Source: Myxococcus landrumus (GTDB lineage: Bacteria > Myxococcota > Myxococcia > Myxococcales > Myxococcaceae). From it: a DNA stretch of 64,000 nt. The notes beneath the pieces are model-generated. The model had not been told where the DNA came from, made no database searches, and was given only the letters and a program-made list of their open reading frames with translations. Position 1 is the first letter of the stretch, and every line of letters starts with the position of its first letter. The DNA lies in assembly GCF_017301635.1 (NCBI RefSeq), contig NZ_CP071091.1, positions 2,926,001-2,990,000 of the forward strand, written 5' to 3'. Position numbers and translations under genes: made by a program. Shown here piece after piece: positions 53,025-59,287 of the stretch.

Positions 53025-53269
53025 GGGGGCGGCCCCGCCCGCTTCAGCCCTGGCGCGCGGGTCGACTCACGCTAATCCGGTAAATGCGGAACCGTCAATG
53101 CGGGGTGAATTGGACCGTCCCCCACCCGACGCGCCAGGTGTGCGCCGGTAACCGCCTTCCGATGTTGGACGCCTCAAGGCCGGAAGTGCGTCTGGAAGTG
53201 GAGATATGGTTTGATGCGTACCCGGCACACTTCTGGAGAATCCATGTTGCTTGTTGGCAGGGGGTACGA

Positions 53270-55315
53270 ATGATCAAGGGCGACTCGCCGAACCCCGAGA
53301 CGCCTGCCGGGACGGGTGCGGATCCGCTCATCGGCCGAACCCTGAATGGCCGCTTCAGCATCCTGGAGCCCCTGGGTGTAGGTGGGATGGGCAAGGTCTA
53401 CCGCGCCCTCCAGGCCCCCCTGGAGCGAGTGGTCGCACTCAAGGTCCTCAACCCCAGCTTCCCCAGCAGCAGGGACCCCGGCTTCCAGAAGCGCTTCCTT
53501 CGAGAGGCGTCACTGACCTCGAAGCTGCGCCACCCCAACACCGTCACGGTCATCGACTACGGGCAGACGGACGACGGCATCTTCTACATCGCCATGGAGT
53601 ACCTGGAGGGCCGCACCCTGGCCCAGGTGCTCGGGCAGGTGGGGCCGCTGCAGTGGTCGCGCGCCATCGCCGTCGCCCAGCAGATCTGCCGCTCGCTGCG
53701 CGAGGCGCACAGCCTGGGCATCGTCCATCGCGACTTGAAGCCCGCCAACATCATGCTCCTCAACGAGCAGGATCAGGACCTGGTGAAGGTCCTGGACTTC
53801 GGGCTCGTGAAGTCGGTGGCGGCGCCGCAGGAGGGGCAGATCTCCCCGGAGATCACCCAGAACGGCACGTTCCTCGGCTCGCCGCAGTACATGGCGCCGG
53901 AGCAGGCGCGCAACGCGACGGACGCACGCAGCGACGTGTACTCGCTGGGCATCGTCCTCTTCCAGATGCTGATGGGTCGCCCGCCGTTCATCGCGCGGGA
54001 CCACATCGAGCTCATCTTCGCCCACTACAAAGAAGCCCCTCCCACCTTCCAGCAGCTGCGCCCGGACATCGCGGTGCCGCCGGAAATCGAGGCGGTGGTG
54101 CGGCGCTGTCTGGAGAAGGACCCCGCGCGGCGTTTCCAGACGATGGACGAGATGCTGGAAGGACTGCGCGAGGCCAGCATGGCCGCGGGCGGCAACAGCG
54201 GCATCTTCAGGCGGCCCGGTGGCGCCACGACGACGGGCCCCTACCCGTCCCCGCTGTTCTCGAGCGTGGGCACGGCGCCCACGGACTCGGGTGACACGCT
54301 CGCGGTGGACATCAGCGTGGAGGTGCCCAAGGCCGTCCAGCGCGCCCGTCAGCGCACGCTGCTGATGGGAGGCCTGGGAGGCGTGGTGGTGGCCGGCCTG
54401 GTCGCGGGCGGCGCCATCTTCTTCATGCGGGACAAGCCCGTCGCGCCGACTCCGGAGTCGAAGCCCGAGCCGGTGGCGCAGGCCCCCGTGCAGGCGCCCC
54501 CCGCGGCGGCGGCGCAAGAGGCGCCCACGCCCGCCGGAGCGCAGAAGGTGCGCTTCAAGCTGATGAGCCAGCCCAGCGGCGCGCGCGTGTTCTACCGAGG
54601 CAAGGAGCGCGGCTCGACGCCCTTCACCCTGGAGCTGCCCGCGGGACAGGACGGCTCCATCACCGTGGAGCTCACCTTCGCGCTGGAGGGCTACCAGATG
54701 GAGACCGTCGTCACGGGCGGCTCCGGTGAGGTGGTGCTGTCGCAGAAGCTCCAGAAGCGCCGGGGTGGCCGAGGCGGCGGGAACACGGAAGTGGCCTCCG
54801 CCTCCGCGCCCGACGAGGTCGAAGTGGCCGAGCCCGTGGCCACGCCGGGTGGAATGTCCGCGCCGGTGATGCTCGCGCCCACGCAGGCGCCCGTGGATGC
54901 CCTGGAGCCTCAGACGGCGGGCGGCGTGGGCGCGGCGGCGGCGGCGCAGGCCAAGGGCGCGGGTGGAAGCCTGGCGGTGCCGGTGCTGCCCTCCGCGGCG
55001 CTGGCCTCCGCGCGCGGCGACGTGCTCCCCTACAACGAAAACATGCCTCGGCCGGAGATGATCGACCAGGGCAAGGACCTCGTCTACACGCGCGAGGCGA
55101 TGGCCGCGAAGGCCGAGGGTGTGATGCTCTTCCGCTGTACCATCACGACCAAGGGCCGCGTGGAGAAGTGTCGCGTCATCAAGCCGGTGGCGCACATGGA
55201 GAAGGCCGTCCTGGAGTCCTTCCAGTCGCGCACGTACAAGCCCATCCTGTACCAGGGCCATCCGGTGAACGTGGACTACACGTTCAGCATCCGGTTGGTG
55301 GCTCCGCGCCGCTGA
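53270..55315 (+). CDS. Ser/Thr protein kinase with PEGA and TonB C-terminal domains
   Basis: A 681-residue membrane kinase. Kinase domain about 25-300: glycine loop LGVGGMGKVYRA, Lys58, HRDLKPAN (Asp155), DFGLV (Asp176). TM helix 364-386 (LLMGGLGGVVVAGLVAGGAIFF). Outside: PEGA-like domain 427-497 (SQPSGARVFYRGKERGSTPF), Pro/Ala-rich linker, and a TonB C-terminal-like domain 583-678 (VMLFRCTITTKGRVEKCRVI, FQSRTYKPILYQGHPVNVDY). ATG 53270 follows AGGGGG. Kinase call is certain; the TonB_C fusion is unusual. Confidence 0.92.
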   Translation: MIKGDSPNPETPAGTGADPLIGRTLNGRFSILEPLGVGGMGKVYRALQAPLERVVALKVLNPSFPSSRDPGFQKRFLREASLTSKLRHPNTVTVIDYGQTDDGIFYIAMEYLEGRTLAQVLGQVGPLQWSRAIAVAQQICRSLREAHSLGIVHRDLKPANIMLLNEQDQDLVKVLDFGLVKSVAAPQEGQISPEITQNGTFLGSPQYMAPEQARNATDARSDVYSLGIVLFQMLMGRPPFIARDHIELIFAHYKEAPPTFQQLRPDIAVPPEIEAVVRRCLEKDPARRFQTMDEMLEGLREASMAAGGNSGIFRRPGGATTTGPYPSPLFSSVGTAPTDSGDTLAVDISVEVPKAVQRARQRTLLMGGLGGVVVAGLVAGGAIFFMRDKPVAPTPESKPEPVAQAPVQAPPAAAAQEAPTPAGAQKVRFKLMSQPSGARVFYRGKERGSTPFTLELPAGQDGSITVELTFALEGYQMETVVTGGSGEVVLSQKLQKRRGGRGGGNTEVASASAPDEVEVAEPVATPGGMSAPVMLAPTQAPVDALEPQTAGGVGAAAAAQAKGAGGSLAVPVLPSAALASARGDVLPYNENMPRPEMIDQGKDLVYTREAMAAKAEGVMLFRCTITTKGRVEKCRVIKPVAHMEKAVLESFQSRTYKPILYQGHPVNVDYTFSIRLVAPRR

Positions 55316-55390: not shown

Positions 55391-56314
55391 TCAGCGTCCG
55401 CCCGACTTCCGCCTCGCGCGCAGCAGCGTGAGGACAGCCAACGCGACACCTGAGAGCGCCGTCCCCGGAGCCGAGGCACAGCCCGTGCCCCGCCCGTCCG
55501 CCAGCAAGACGATGCCCGTGTCCAGGCGCGGCACGCATTGGTTGGGCGGCTGCCACCGTGGATAGATGGAGCAGAAGCCCGCGACGGAGCCCGAGTCCAC
55601 CACCCGCTTGCGCGTCTCCCCCGGCGGCGCGGTGGGCGCCATGGTGGAGCCCGCGTTCGCCACGTGGTCCAAGCCCACGACGTGGCCAATCTCATGCGTC
55701 ATGGTGTTCTGCAGGTCCACCGCCACGCAGTCCGTGGCCGGAGGGCCCTGGCATGGAGGCCCGTCCACCGTGGTGAAGAGGTGGCCCGCGGAGCCTCCGG
55801 GCTGGGACGCGTTCATCTCGATGTCCGCGTCCAGCACCCGCCCGGAAGCGATGCTGTACGTGGACGTGGTGAGCGCCAGCGTCTCCTCGCCAATCTCCCA
55901 GCATGTGTACTTGTTGCCGCAGCTCTCGTCACCCCAGCACGCATCCTCCCGAGGCGCGACGTCCTCACACGACGTCTCGCGGAACGTGATGATGTTGTAG
56001 TTGGAGCGCGGGTTCTTCTCGTCGTAGCCGACGGCGATGGGGCCTCGCCAGTCCGAGCCCCGCCGGAACTGATAGTCGCTGCACGACTCCGACACGCGCC
56101 GCCAGGAGTCGAACGACGCCTCGATGGCGGCCACTTCCGTGTCGCCGGGGGTCCGGGCGCTGCCCGCCGGGTCCAGGTGGTAGACATACTCGCGCACCGG
56201 CCACAGCAGACACAGCGGCCTGCCCCGGACGAGCGTGCGCTGGAACGGGAGGGTGTCCTGCGCCACCGAGGGCGTCGCGAGGAGCAGGAGCCCCCACAGC
56301 AGCGGCCTCTTCAT
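55391..56314 (-). CDS. Matrixin-like zinc metalloprotease with MYXO-CTERM-like tail
   Basis: A 307-residue secreted protease starting MKRPLLWGLLLLATPSVAQ (signal peptide). The metzincin motif HEIGHVVGLDH is at residues 207-217 with a downstream Met in GSTMAPTAPPG (Met-turn). The C-terminus ends GCASAPG, a hydrophobic helix and RARRKSGGR, the MYXO-CTERM plan recognised by myxosortase for surface anchoring. Many Cys suggest disulfides. It overlaps the sister protease by 4 nt (ATGA) and is a likely duplicate of it. Confidence 0.87.
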   Translation of the reverse strand: MKRPLLWGLLLLATPSVAQDTLPFQRTLVRGRPLCLLWPVREYVYHLDPAGSARTPGDTEVAAIEASFDSWRRVSESCSDYQFRRGSDWRGPIAVGYDEKNPRSNYNIITFRETSCEDVAPREDACWGDESCGNKYTCWEIGEETLALTTSTYSIASGRVLDADIEMNASQPGGSAGHLFTTVDGPPCQGPPATDCVAVDLQNTMTHEIGHVVGLDHVANAGSTMAPTAPPGETRKRVVDSGSVAGFCSIYPRWQPPNQCVPRLDTGIVLLADGRGTGCASAPGTALSGVALAVLTLLRARRKSGGR

Positions 56315-57195
56315 GAGCGGCCCCCGCGCTCGCGGCGACGAAGCCCCCACAGGGCCCACGCCAGCAGCGCGGCGCCCATGGACGTCGCGCCCGTCGACGA
56401 GCAGCCGCCATCCTTCGCCCCCAGCTTGTCCTCCACCGTGGGGTGCAGACAGGCCTGGCTGGCGCGGCCCTTGGGATAGACGTCGCACACGAACGAGCTC
56501 GAGCCCGTGTCGATGGTGCGCTTGGACACCTCGCCTGGACTGGCGCTGGGGTTCATCGTGGAGCCGTTCGCGCGCGTGTGGTCCAGGCCGATGAAGTGGC
56601 CAATCTCATGCGTGGCGGTATTCTGCACGTCGGCGGGCACACAGTTCGTCGGAGCAGGCGGTTCACACTTCGCCCCGATCACCGTCGTGAAGGTGTACTT
56701 CTCCGCGTTGAAGGAGATATCCGAGTCGAGGATGACGCCGGAGCGCTTGTCGTAGGTCGTGAGGGTGATGGCGAGCGTGTTGTCGTCGTCATCCCAGCAG
56801 TCGTACTGGCTGGCGCACGTCTCTGCCTTCCAGCACGCGTCCTTCTCCGCCACCACGGTGCTGCAGTTGATCGTGCGGAAGAGCACCACGTTGTTGTTCT
56901 GCTCGTTGCGCCGGTAGCCCACGCGCCGCTCGTTGATGACGGGGCCCTCGCGCAGCGACAGGTTTCCGCACCGCGCGAAGATGTCCTCCCAGCTCTTGAA
57001 GGCGACCCGAACGGCCTCGAACTCCGTGTCCCCCGCCGTGCCAGGGTTGCCCTGCGTGGCCTGGCTCCAGGTGACCTGGGGCACAGTCCAATAGAGGCAC
57101 TGGGTGGAATCATCCCCTGGATTCACCCGGCTGCGGACATAGGGGGCGAACTGTCCCAGCGCCAGGGCCGCCAGCAACGCTGCCGCGGCACTCAC
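56311..57195 (-). CDS. Matrixin-like zinc metalloprotease with MYXO-CTERM tail
   Basis: A 294-residue paralogue of the next gene. Zinc motif HEIGHFIGLDH at residues 196-206 and Met-turn GSTMNPSASPG. The C-terminal tripartite signal is canonical: GGCSSTG, hydrophobic GAALLAWALWGL and RRRERGGRS. The N-terminal hydrophobic stretch (MSAAAALLAALALGQF) is a short signal peptide. Starts GTG overlapping the upstream gene's stop (GTGA) and is coupled to the downstream protease (ATGA). Confidence 0.88.
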   Translation of the reverse strand: MSAAAALLAALALGQFAPYVRSRVNPGDDSTQCLYWTVPQVTWSQATQGNPGTAGDTEFEAVRVAFKSWEDIFARCGNLSLREGPVINERRVGYRRNEQNNNVVLFRTINCSTVVAEKDACWKAETCASQYDCWDDDDNTLAITLTTYDKRSGVILDSDISFNAEKYTFTTVIGAKCEPPAPTNCVPADVQNTATHEIGHFIGLDHTRANGSTMNPSASPGEVSKRTIDTGSSSFVCDVYPKGRASQACLHPTVEDKLGAKDGGCSSTGATSMGAALLAWALWGLRRRERGGRS

Positions 57196-57755
57196 GGCGC
57201 GGACTCCTTCAGCGCGGCGCGAATGGCCGCCTTCAGGTCCTCGAGCGTCCTCGGCTTCTCCACCGAGGCGGTCGGCTGACGCGTGACGGGGTCCAGCAGC
57301 AGCGCCTCCGTGGGCTCGGGAACCGCCATGGCGGGCTTGCCGACCTCCCCGCGCCGCACCTGGTACTTGCCCTGCGCCTCACCCGACAGGCGGAACGCCT
57401 TCGCGCCGCGCTTGCGCAGGAAGATGACCACTTCCTCACCCGTCTTGAATGAGGCAAGTCCGTGCACCACTTGTCCGATATCGCCCACCTCGCCACCGGG
57501 TTGCGTGACGAGCACCGTGCCCCCGGGCTGTCCCTTGAGGGGCTCGACGACCTCGACCTCGACGTCCGTGACGATTCGCTGACCGTCTCCCGCCCAGCGA
57601 CTCTCCACGCGACGAACGACGCCGTGGACCACCGCGTCCGACTCAAGAGAGAGCTGCGACAAGTCCATCCGCAACTGCGTGGTGGCGGCCGCGGGCACCG
57701 CGGCCAGGAGGACCACCGTCACCATCCCCATGCGAAATAGCTGACGAATCGACAT
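57192..57755 (-). CDS. Hypothetical exported protein leading the matrixin operon
   Basis: A 187-residue protein with a signal peptide (MGMVTVVLLAAVPAAATTQ). The mature part has LSLESDAVVHGVVRRVESRW and TDVEVEVVEPLKGQPGGTVLVTQPGGEVGDIG, a beta-rich fold of unknown type, then a polar tail. It is the first gene of a three-gene minus-strand operon with two metalloproteases, translationally coupled to both in series. It may be an inhibitor, chaperone or co-secreted partner (inference). Not recognised. Confidence 0.7.
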   Translation of the reverse strand: MSIRQLFRMGMVTVVLLAAVPAAATTQLRMDLSQLSLESDAVVHGVVRRVESRWAGDGQRIVTDVEVEVVEPLKGQPGGTVLVTQPGGEVGDIGQVVHGLASFKTGEEVVIFLRKRGAKAFRLSGEAQGKYQVRRGEVGKPAMAVPEPTEALLLDPVTRQPTASVEKPRTLEDLKAAIRAALKESAP

Positions 57756-57807
57756 GCACGTTCTCTCCCCGTTGCGAGCACCATACCCCAGAGCATGGCC
57801 ATCCGCG

Positions 57808-57837
57808 TTGACCCCCTGACCACCACCCTGCTAATCC
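57808..57837 (+). promoter_or_regulatory. Candidate sigma70 promoter of gltX
   Basis: TTGACC (57808-57813) and TAATCC (57832-57837) are 18 bp apart. A transcript would start near 57844, only about 4 nt before the gltX ATG at 57848, and no Shine-Dalgarno sequence precedes that ATG, so a leaderless mRNA is possible. Confidence 0.35.
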
Positions 57838-57847
57838 GCGCGCCGGT

Positions 57848-59287
57848 ATGCCCTCTGCTCCTCGCGTCCGCTTTGCTCCGTCCCCTACCGGATACCTCCA
57901 CATTGGTGGTGCCCGGACGGCGCTGATGAACTACCTGCAGGCTCGTCGCCATGGCGGCACCTTCATTCTTCGCATGGAGGACACGGACCGGGTCCGCTCC
58001 ACCGCGGAGTCGGTGCAAGCCATCCTCGATGGACTGGTGTGGCTTGGCATCGACTGGGATGAAGGACCCGGCAAGGAGGGCCCGCACGCGCCCTACTTCC
58101 AGACCCAGCGGTTGGACACCTACCGCGAGCACTCCCAGCGCCTCATCGCCGAGGGCAAGGCCTACCGCTGCTACTGCACCCGGCAGGACCTGGATGCGCA
58201 GCGCGAGGCGGCCGAGAAGTCCGGCGGCTTCTACAAGTACCCGGGCACCTGCCGGGAACTGAAGGCCCCGCCCGTAGGCCGCCGCGAGGAGGAGGCCGTC
58301 ATCCGCTTCAAGATGCCCTCCACCGAAGGCACCGTGTCGTTCACCGACAAGGCGCTGGGCACCATCGCCAAGCCCTACTCGGACCTGGATGACTGGGTGA
58401 TGCTGCGCGCGGACGGCATCCCCCTCTACAACTTCGGCTGCGTCATCGACGACCACCTGATGGACATCACCCTGGTGGCGCGCGGCCAGGAGCACGTCAA
58501 CTCCACCTTCCCGCAGCTCATGCTCTACCAGGCGCTGGGCTGGCAGCCGCCGGAGTTCGCGCACCTGCCGCTCATCCTGGGGCCGGACCGCGAGAAGCTC
58601 TCCAAGCGCAAGCACCCGGAAGCGGACGTGATGCTGCACAAGCGCACCGGCATCATGCCGGAGGCGCTCAACAACTTCGTCATCCGCCTGGGCTGGAGCC
58701 ACGGCAATGACGAGGTCATCACCCGCGAGCAGATGCTCGAGTGGTTCGACTTCTCCGACGTCGGCACCACGTCCGGCGTGTGGAACCCGGAGAAGCTTCT
58801 CTGGCTCAACCAGCAGTGGATGAAGCTGCTGCCAGAGGCCACCGTCGCGGAGCGGCTGGTGCCCTTCCTCGAGGCCAAGGGCTTCCAGGTGAAGGGCGAC
58901 TCGCGGCTGGTGCCCCTGGTGCATGCGCTGAAGGAGCGCGCCCGCACGCTGGAGGAGATGGCCACCACCGCCTCGCTCTACTTCCGGTCCGGCGTGACGC
59001 TGGACGAGAAGGCCGCGGCCAAGCACCTCACGGGTGACTCGCTGGTGCTCCTGGGCAAGGTGCGCGAGGGCATCGCCGCGCTTCCGGAGTGGACGGTGGA
59101 GGCGCTCGACGGCGTGGTGAAGGCCGTCAGTGAGTCCTCCAGCGTCGGCATGGGCAAGGTCGCGCAGCCCGTGCGGGTCGCCATCACTGGCAACACCACC
59201 AGCCCCGGCATCGGCGAGACGCTGCTCCTGGCGGGCCGCGACGAAGCCCTGCGTCGCATCGACGCCGCACTCACCCGCGGCGCGTGA
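57848..59287 (+). CDS. gltX: Glutamyl-tRNA synthetase
   Basis: A 479-residue class I aminoacyl-tRNA synthetase attaching Glu to tRNA-Glu. FAPSPTGYLHIGGARTALMN holds the HIGH-type motif, FILRMEDTDRVR the Glu-binding Arg/Asp, and KLSKRKHPEADV the KMSKS-type motif (about residue 255). The C-terminal anticodon-binding domain is complete. It is followed by a hairpin, a small secreted protein gene and tRNA-Gln/tRNA-Glu. It may be non-discriminating (Gln via amidation), which cannot be told here. Confidence 0.96.
   Translation: MPSAPRVRFAPSPTGYLHIGGARTALMNYLQARRHGGTFILRMEDTDRVRSTAESVQAILDGLVWLGIDWDEGPGKEGPHAPYFQTQRLDTYREHSQRLIAEGKAYRCYCTRQDLDAQREAAEKSGGFYKYPGTCRELKAPPVGRREEEAVIRFKMPSTEGTVSFTDKALGTIAKPYSDLDDWVMLRADGIPLYNFGCVIDDHLMDITLVARGQEHVNSTFPQLMLYQALGWQPPEFAHLPLILGPDREKLSKRKHPEADVMLHKRTGIMPEALNNFVIRLGWSHGNDEVITREQMLEWFDFSDVGTTSGVWNPEKLLWLNQQWMKLLPEATVAERLVPFLEAKGFQVKGDSRLVPLVHALKERARTLEEMATTASLYFRSGVTLDEKAAAKHLTGDSLVLLGKVREGIAALPEWTVEALDGVVKAVSESSSVGMGKVAQPVRVAITGNTTSPGIGETLLLAGRDEALRRIDAALTRGA

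Follow-up and report, generated by a model that had tools for sequence, protein, structure and literature searches.

A candidate TIMP-like inhibitor encoded directly upstream of two MYXO-CTERM matrixins in Myxococcus landrumus

The pairing of a matrixin, or more broadly a metzincin, with a protein partner has been described in animals, i.e. for the matrix metalloproteinases (MMPs) and the TIMPs, and in bacteria such as Tannerella, Listeria and Pseudomonas. Here we compare these systems with a three-gene operon of Myxococcus landrumus, located in a window of 64,000 nucleotides (the whole stretch of DNA that was analysed, i.e. positions 2,926,001 to 2,990,000 of contig NZ_CP071091.1 in assembly GCF_017301635.1; coordinates below count from its first letter), in which a gene for an exported protein (gene 1, its product and the homologues thereof hereafter called the partner) precedes the genes for two matrixins, A and B. 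In view of its predicted fold, we consider the chance to be somewhat better than even, roughly 55%, that the partner is a dedicated TIMP-like inhibitor, or latency factor, of both co-transcribed matrixins.

TIMPs have been reviewed as proteins of the Metazoa that are linked to the rise of the extracellular matrix (PMC9409782). Like the animal system, the operon combines enzymes that are matrixins with a partner of the corresponding predicted fold, whose predicted mature N-terminus takes the place of TIMP Cys1. Unlike the animal TIMPs, the partner lacks the Cys1-x-Cys3 arrangement and any detectable sequence similarity, it is encoded in one operon with the protease or is fused to it, and it leaves the C-terminal TIMP domain unmatched, the alignment reaching no further than about TIMP residue 128. 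In Tannerella, the genes for the potempin inhibitors directly precede those of the cognate proteases, karilysin's included (PMC7296668), and in the case of potempin A (PotA) and karilysin of Tannerella forsythia the order is the same as here, in that the gene of the inhibitor comes immediately before that of a matrixin. Whereas potempins are lipoproteins and karilysin is a KLIKK protease (PMC7296668), the partner in the window contains no cysteine, and thus no lipobox, and the proteases carry MYXO-CTERM tails.

In the Mtz-Tim system of the Gram-positive Listeria, a secreted metzincin and a TIMP-like protein are likewise encoded by neighbouring genes, but there Tim is a lipoprotein whose gene follows that of the protease and which the protease cleaves; the system is phage-associated and the similarity to TIMPs was derived with Phyre2 (PMC8235301). 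The alkaline protease of Pseudomonas and AprI resemble the arrangement proposed here in that a secreted metzincin has a dedicated periplasmic inhibitor; a title cited in the same paper mentions a zinc-NH2 bond for AprI, the structure of which is stated there to be unlike that of TIMPs (PMC8235301). The working principle would be closest to that of the potempins and the animal TIMPs. A search of the open-access literature, without supplements, yielded no paper on MXAN_2676 to MXAN_2679, nor one on Myxococcus in connection with a metalloprotease and TIMP. Since the proteases already belong to a named NCBI family (NF041905, 'myxosortase-dependent metalloprotease, MXAN_2677/MXAN_2678 family'), which covers proteases only, they are not new; the newly described part of the trio is gene 1, which the first-pass annotation of the window had left unrecognised.

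Predicted fold and mature N-terminus of the upstream protein

Gene 1 (57192..57755, minus strand) starts with ATG and encodes 187 amino acids, none of which is a cysteine. The protein has no curated Pfam or NCBIfam match over cut-off (the best being ACT_6, E 0.16) and no NCBIfam model matches it at E<=1; a search of a plasmid collection also gave no match. Among 44 homologues the Pfam matches are weak and scattered, among them DUF4131 in 10 (best E 0.0014), TOBE_2 in one (E 0.095) and NtA in one (E 0.17), and several of the families matched are OB-folds. The arrangement of the strands pointed to a TIMP/NTR fold, which was put to the test by structure prediction, with the window protein aligned to 35 homologues from named records. 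The resulting AlphaFold2 model has a mean pLDDT of 92.5 and a pTM of 0.84. When it was compared with the PDB by Foldseek, four matches at E<=0.001 were obtained, all of them to the NtA domain of agrin (described in PDB titles as 'structurally related to N-TIMP-1'); next came TIMP-1 (E 0.0036), the NTR domain of PCOLCE and TIMP-2. VIA-align ranked agrin NtA (Z 11.0, 2.5 A, 109 residues), TIMP-3 (Z 10.9, 2.5 A, 117 residues) and TIMP-1 (Z 10.8, 2.5 A, 115 residues) at the top, with TIMP-2 at Z 9.8 and 9.6, the top rows giving 2.4-2.7 A over 109-121 residues. All 50 matches listed are TIMPs, NtA, PCOLCE NTR or chains of complement C3/C4/C5, the latter matched near their C-terminal ends, at Z 8.0-11.0. 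PotA, an OB-fold protein, is not among the structural matches listed for the partner, and such an absence excludes nothing.

The predicted model thus places the partner in the TIMP/NTR-like OB-fold superfamily. The TIMP family proper (PF00965) does not include it, neither in terms of cysteines nor in terms of sequence recognition, and we therefore call the partner TIMP-like. The first-pass annotation had proposed that the protein might be an inhibitor, chaperone or activator; the predicted fold narrows this range in favour of an inhibitor or latency factor, short of proof.

The same structural alignments bear on the start of the mature protein. In all 17 TIMP rows among the matches listed, the first aligned pair consists of model residue 25 and the first residue of the TIMP chain, which carries the number 301 or 1001 in three entries and 1 in the others. 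By the small-residue rule for signal peptides, the partner would be cut at AVPAAA|TT, so that the predicted signal peptide comprises residues 1-24 (57684..57755, minus strand) and Thr25, the residue that aligns with TIMP residue 1, is the predicted first residue of the mature domain (57195..57683, minus strand). Small residues suited to positions -3 and -1 occur in 107 of 113 aligned partner rows (the window protein counts twice, which leaves 112 distinct sequences), with Ala at position 24 in 104, Thr or Ser at position 25 in 97 and Thr at position 26 in 76; in 97 rows the mature part has no cysteine. The segment from residue 25 to Gly45 is 21 residues long in every row, and its length is also constant in all 88 rows that remain after thinning to <90% identity, 75 of which have Thr or Ser at position 25. 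The length of residues 87-112 is kept in 112 of the 113 rows, and the window's length is kept in 84% of rows for 45-63, 86% for 63-87, 56% for 112-129 and 21% for 129-174. By a crude ruler, based on the hydrophobic core and the AxA rule (34 partners and 26 matrixins being uncalled), a single signal-peptide spacing covers 70% of 93 partners versus 16% of 137 matrixins. At the level of sequence, the fixed spacing between the predicted cut site and the core of the fold fits a functional mature N-terminus.

Conservation and pairing with the matrixins

The first-pass annotation treated the upstream gene and the proteases as a unit, a view that is upheld by the genomic distribution, the trio or the pair being found repeatedly in the order, beyond what chance would give. 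Among 145 genomes of the order searched at E<=0.001, 133 hold both partner and protease, 10 hold neither, one holds only the partner (G023, where it lies at a contig end) and one only the protease (G034, a weak match with E 7.6e-6). At the same threshold NF041905 matches in 134 of the 145 genomes, in 109 of them over the curated cut-off, and the partner is likewise found in 134; in a draw of 146 genomes of the phylum, the partner profile matches at E<=1e-8 in 133. When the sequences from all loci, the window's included, were pooled (loci L001-L032 stemming from the protease search and the rest from partner searches or from regions chosen from their listings), 134 distinct partners were obtained; a matrixin is the next gene for 119 of these and is fused to the partner in 5, one partner lies at a contig end and 9 have no matrixin. 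In 105 of 118 pairs, an in-frame start codon lies one base before the partner's stop, i.e. the 4-base type of overlap, the start nearest to that stop being the one counted. A scan of named genomes with the partner alignment yielded 44 loci, with a matrixin next to or fused with the partner in 43 (the exception being L144), and all ten downstream or fused proteins that were tested match M10 over the Pfam cut-off. On these counts of co-occurrence and adjacency we reject the idea of an upstream gene without ties to the proteases, and one of the two refuting outcomes named beforehand, a lack of conservation of this gene with the proteases, did not occur.

The 44 loci include three from metagenome-assembled records, whose labels, Planctomycetota (L132), Bdellovibrionales (L133) and Candidatus Eisenbacteria (L145), need care. 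A further record, titled Comamonas sp. KCTC 72670 (L106, BNCN01000003.1), holds the full trio with a partner that is 67% identical, and its label looks wrong for what appears to be myxobacterial sequence.

Natural fusions of partner and matrixin in one reading frame occur at five loci, namely L145 and, in four genomes that share the family of M. landrumus (two of which also share its genus), L096, L097, L099 and L100. As judged by eye, the four myxobacterial fusions keep a MYXO-CTERM-like tail, and in all five the signal peptide is immediately followed by the NTR domain, which precedes the matrixin and whose N-terminus thus stays free. At L123 (169-1566, minus strand) a matrixin with a MYXO-CTERM-like tail is followed, in frame, by another stretch that resembles a signal peptide and by a degenerate domain similar to the partner, an arrangement that may reflect a metagenome frameshift or a real reversed fusion.

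The matrixins and the layout of the locus

The trio consists of three minus-strand open reading frames (ORFs) that run from 57755 down to 55391, and both the ORF coordinates and the overlaps in the sequence agree with the operon, coupled by GTGA and ATGA, that had been described for it. Matrixin A (56311..57195, minus strand, 294 amino acids) starts with a GTG that lies within the GTGA overlap with the TGA of gene 1, and matrixin B (55391..56314, minus strand, 307 amino acids) starts with the ATG at 56314, in an ATGA overlap with the TGA of gene 2, i.e. the gene for matrixin A. That the two are tandem paralogous matrixins with the motif HEIGHxxGLDH, as earlier claimed, holds as well: they are 39% identical, the zinc-binding motif reads HEIGHFIGLDH in A (56578..56610, minus strand) and HEIGHVVGLDH in B (55664..55696, minus strand), followed in both by an STM Met-turn, and their scores exceed the cut-offs of Pfam Matrixin PF00413 (35.9 and 38.4 bits, cut-off 24) and NF041905 (383.5 and 369.9 bits, cut-off 250, with the match reaching the last profile position). 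Besides the cysteine of the tail, the matrixins have ten invariant or near-invariant cysteines.

The tails consist of GGCSSTG, a hydrophobic helix and RRRERGGRS in A (56314..56409, minus strand) and of GCASAPG, a hydrophobic helix and RARRKSGGR in B (55394..55483, minus strand). The earlier claim that they are MYXO-CTERM tails is sustained narrowly, by one of two general models: TIGR03382 (cut-off 15.85) gives 17.1 bits for A and 16.3 for B, i.e. 1.3 and 0.5 above the cut-off, and in TIGR03901 (cut-off 20) the tail of A scores 19.0 and that of B is not listed. The other refuting outcome named beforehand, namely tails that a MYXO-CTERM model does not recognise, thus did not occur either. The gene for the myxosortase MrtX is found in the same genome (NF040593, 450 bits, cut-off 180), which makes surface sorting plausible, and from the tails and this gene we infer that both matrixins would be displayed at the surface. 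No finding of the present analysis points to the role in predation or development that the first-pass annotation had considered. The sorting model comprises lipidation, cleavage by MrtX and type II export (PMC11980579).

Although a search of the PDB with the sequence of matrixin A gave no match at E<=0.01, its structure model (37 sequences, pLDDT 87.8) has the catalytic fold of MMPs. The best VIA matches are karilysin in its complex with PotA (8b2q; Z 17.1, 164 residues, 3.2 A), human MMP-12 (Z 16.8) and MMP-9 (Z 16.7), and Z is at least 15.6 in all 50 matches listed. The alignment begins at model residue 18-20 in 36 of these 50 matches and at 23-33 in the others, in each case at or near the start of the MMP catalytic domain and preceded by the signal peptide. 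The catalytic fold of matrixin A therefore begins right after the signal peptide, which leaves no room for a cysteine-switch prodomain; for matrixin B the judgement is from length only, its Pfam match beginning at residue 44. In terms of the model for A and of length for B, neither enzyme has the prodomain with cysteine switch of classical animal MMP zymogens. Matrixin A, lacking a prodomain, would need something in its place, and this would be supplied by an inhibitor made as a protein of its own or by an NTR domain fused to the front of the enzyme.

In the homologous matrixins of L068 and L134, HExxH is kept and the third His is replaced by Glu or Asp; we considered them as plainly dead enzymes and rejected this, zinc binding by both being not excluded as judged from the motif. 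A third stretch resembling NF041905, weakly (48 bits), was seen in a 617-amino-acid frame at L101 (2409-4259, minus strand; G000:C1:3013985), in which an HExxH-type motif was not found.

Upstream of the operon, a divergent gap of 92 bases (57756..57847), inferred to be the probable site of its promoter, separates gene 1 from an ORF on the plus strand (57848-59287) that, by eye, resembles glutamyl-tRNA synthetase; relatives of this ORF occur at 58 of 114 partner-holding loci of at least 4.6 kb (loci not made non-redundant). The convergent neighbour (53084-55315, plus strand) resembles, again by eye only, a Ser/Thr protein kinase with a TonB-type-like C-terminal end, which is an odd pairing.

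Proposed inhibition, its alternatives and their implications

If the partner is an inhibitor, the following course of events can be envisaged. The partner would be translated first and leave the cytoplasm by Sec; once it has been cleaved behind Ala24, the free N-terminal Thr25, together with the conserved loop QPGGxVGDxGQ, would wedge into the active site of the matrixin, with the N-terminal amine positioned on the catalytic zinc as in TIMPs. The prodomain-less proteases would thereby be kept off in the periplasm during folding, lipidation, myxosortase cleavage and transfer to the surface, and at the cell surface the brake would be removed or outcompeted. In a broader form, which we put forward tentatively and would rate at short of even odds, the pairing of MMP and TIMP was not invented by animals: throughout the Myxococcota, and in the single records that bear the labels Planctomycetota, Bdellovibrionales and Eisenbacteria, a prodomain-less matrixin would be inhibited by a protein of NTR fold that is encoded before the protease or fused to it. 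This protein would insert its free mature N-terminal Thr or Ser at the active-site zinc, in the manner of TIMP Cys1 though lacking disulfides, and the fused form would act as a prodomain made from a TIMP.

Several observations count against inhibition. Many NTR domains, such as those of agrin (NtA), PCOLCE and complement, are not known to be protease inhibitors, and the single best structural match of the partner is NtA rather than a TIMP. Because the window protein has no cysteine, the Cys1-x-Cys3 of TIMPs is absent, and in terms of sequence no relation to TIMPs was detected: no TIMP or NTR model of Pfam matches at E<=1 in 44 members of the partner family, sequence searches of the PDB gave nothing or chance-level matches to single-stranded DNA-binding (SSB) proteins of OB-fold (E at least 0.28), and the comparison of the partner profile with the single TIMP-1 sequence by hhalign is not significant (probability 0.3%, E 0.19), the 37 columns aligned being those expected (SDAVVHG with SDLVIRA, LKG with YKG). 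A strand at the start of the fold also fixes the spacing, so that the constant length of residues 25-45 is no proof of a functional N-terminus. Listeria Tim is reported to be cut by its metzincin rather than to inhibit it (PMC8235301). Furthermore, of the 20 partner loci examined in 19 genomes of Myxococcota outside the order, a matrixin comes next in 12 and does not in 8. At four of these 8 (L180, L183, L189 and L190) the partner relative precedes a giant exported protein with Dicty_CTDC Cys-rich repeats and CARDB, which is cut by the end of the locus and has no HExxH motif in the part covered, at one it precedes a NADase_transloc/F5_F8_type_C protein, and at three there is no ORF of >150 amino acids on the partner's strand within 900 bases. 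Together with L144, these 8 make up the nine partners without a matrixin. The 8 loci imply that the family is mostly, but not only, tied to matrixins, and that a general role as a partner in export is possible. The genome of the window itself holds, at L149 (G000:C1:8912471), two consecutive ORFs that are weakly partner-like (17-18 bits) and adjoin no matrixin; as far as these scores tell, they are possible further NTR-like proteins.

A role in export or folding is the essence of the alternative that the partner is a chaperone. Once in the periplasm, the disulfide-rich matrixins would be bound by it and escorted to the sorting machinery with the active site unblocked. The position of the partner at the head of the operon and its coupling in the 105 of 118 pairs, the ten conserved matrixin cysteines and the four distant relatives that precede other Cys-rich exported proteins are all in line with such a role, and the natural fusions would equally fit an intramolecular chaperone. 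We nevertheless regard it as unlikely, since matrixin inhibitors have the fold predicted here, and since the fixed mature N-terminus, which a zinc wedge at the N-terminus would need, is left without an explanation if the partner is a chaperone. The partner could also be a surface-binding module, comparable to agrin NtA or the NTR domain of PCOLCE, that binds a ligand in the matrix or at the surface and positions or enhances the proteases. This would agree with NtA as best structural match and with relatives that adjoin large exported proteins, but NtA, TIMP-3 and TIMP-1 are tied in terms of Z, and the partner has a cleavable signal only, with no anchor or tail seen, which makes this explanation improbable. 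Slightly more improbable still is that the partner is a substrate from which the protease releases an effector, i.e. an NTR domain acting elsewhere, as Mtz-Tim of Listeria would suggest: Tim lacking about 50 N-terminal residues is found free in the medium when the metzincin is active (PMC8235301). The window partner, on the other hand, has no lipobox cysteine, is encoded before the protease and aligns to NTR folds from residue 25 onwards, and the fusions would require an internal cut.

Should the partner indeed be an inhibitor, a bacterial TIMP-like brake would mean that this solution is either ancient or was reached twice, and the pairing of a protease with its brake would not only be found in animals. 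The proposal provides a testable function for a family that has no match in the copies of Pfam and NCBIfam that were searched, and it offers a source of TIMP-like proteins whose small size and, in most cases, lack of cysteine go with what may be easy expression. For the myxobacteria, it suggests how prodomain-less surface proteases could stay safe during sorting.

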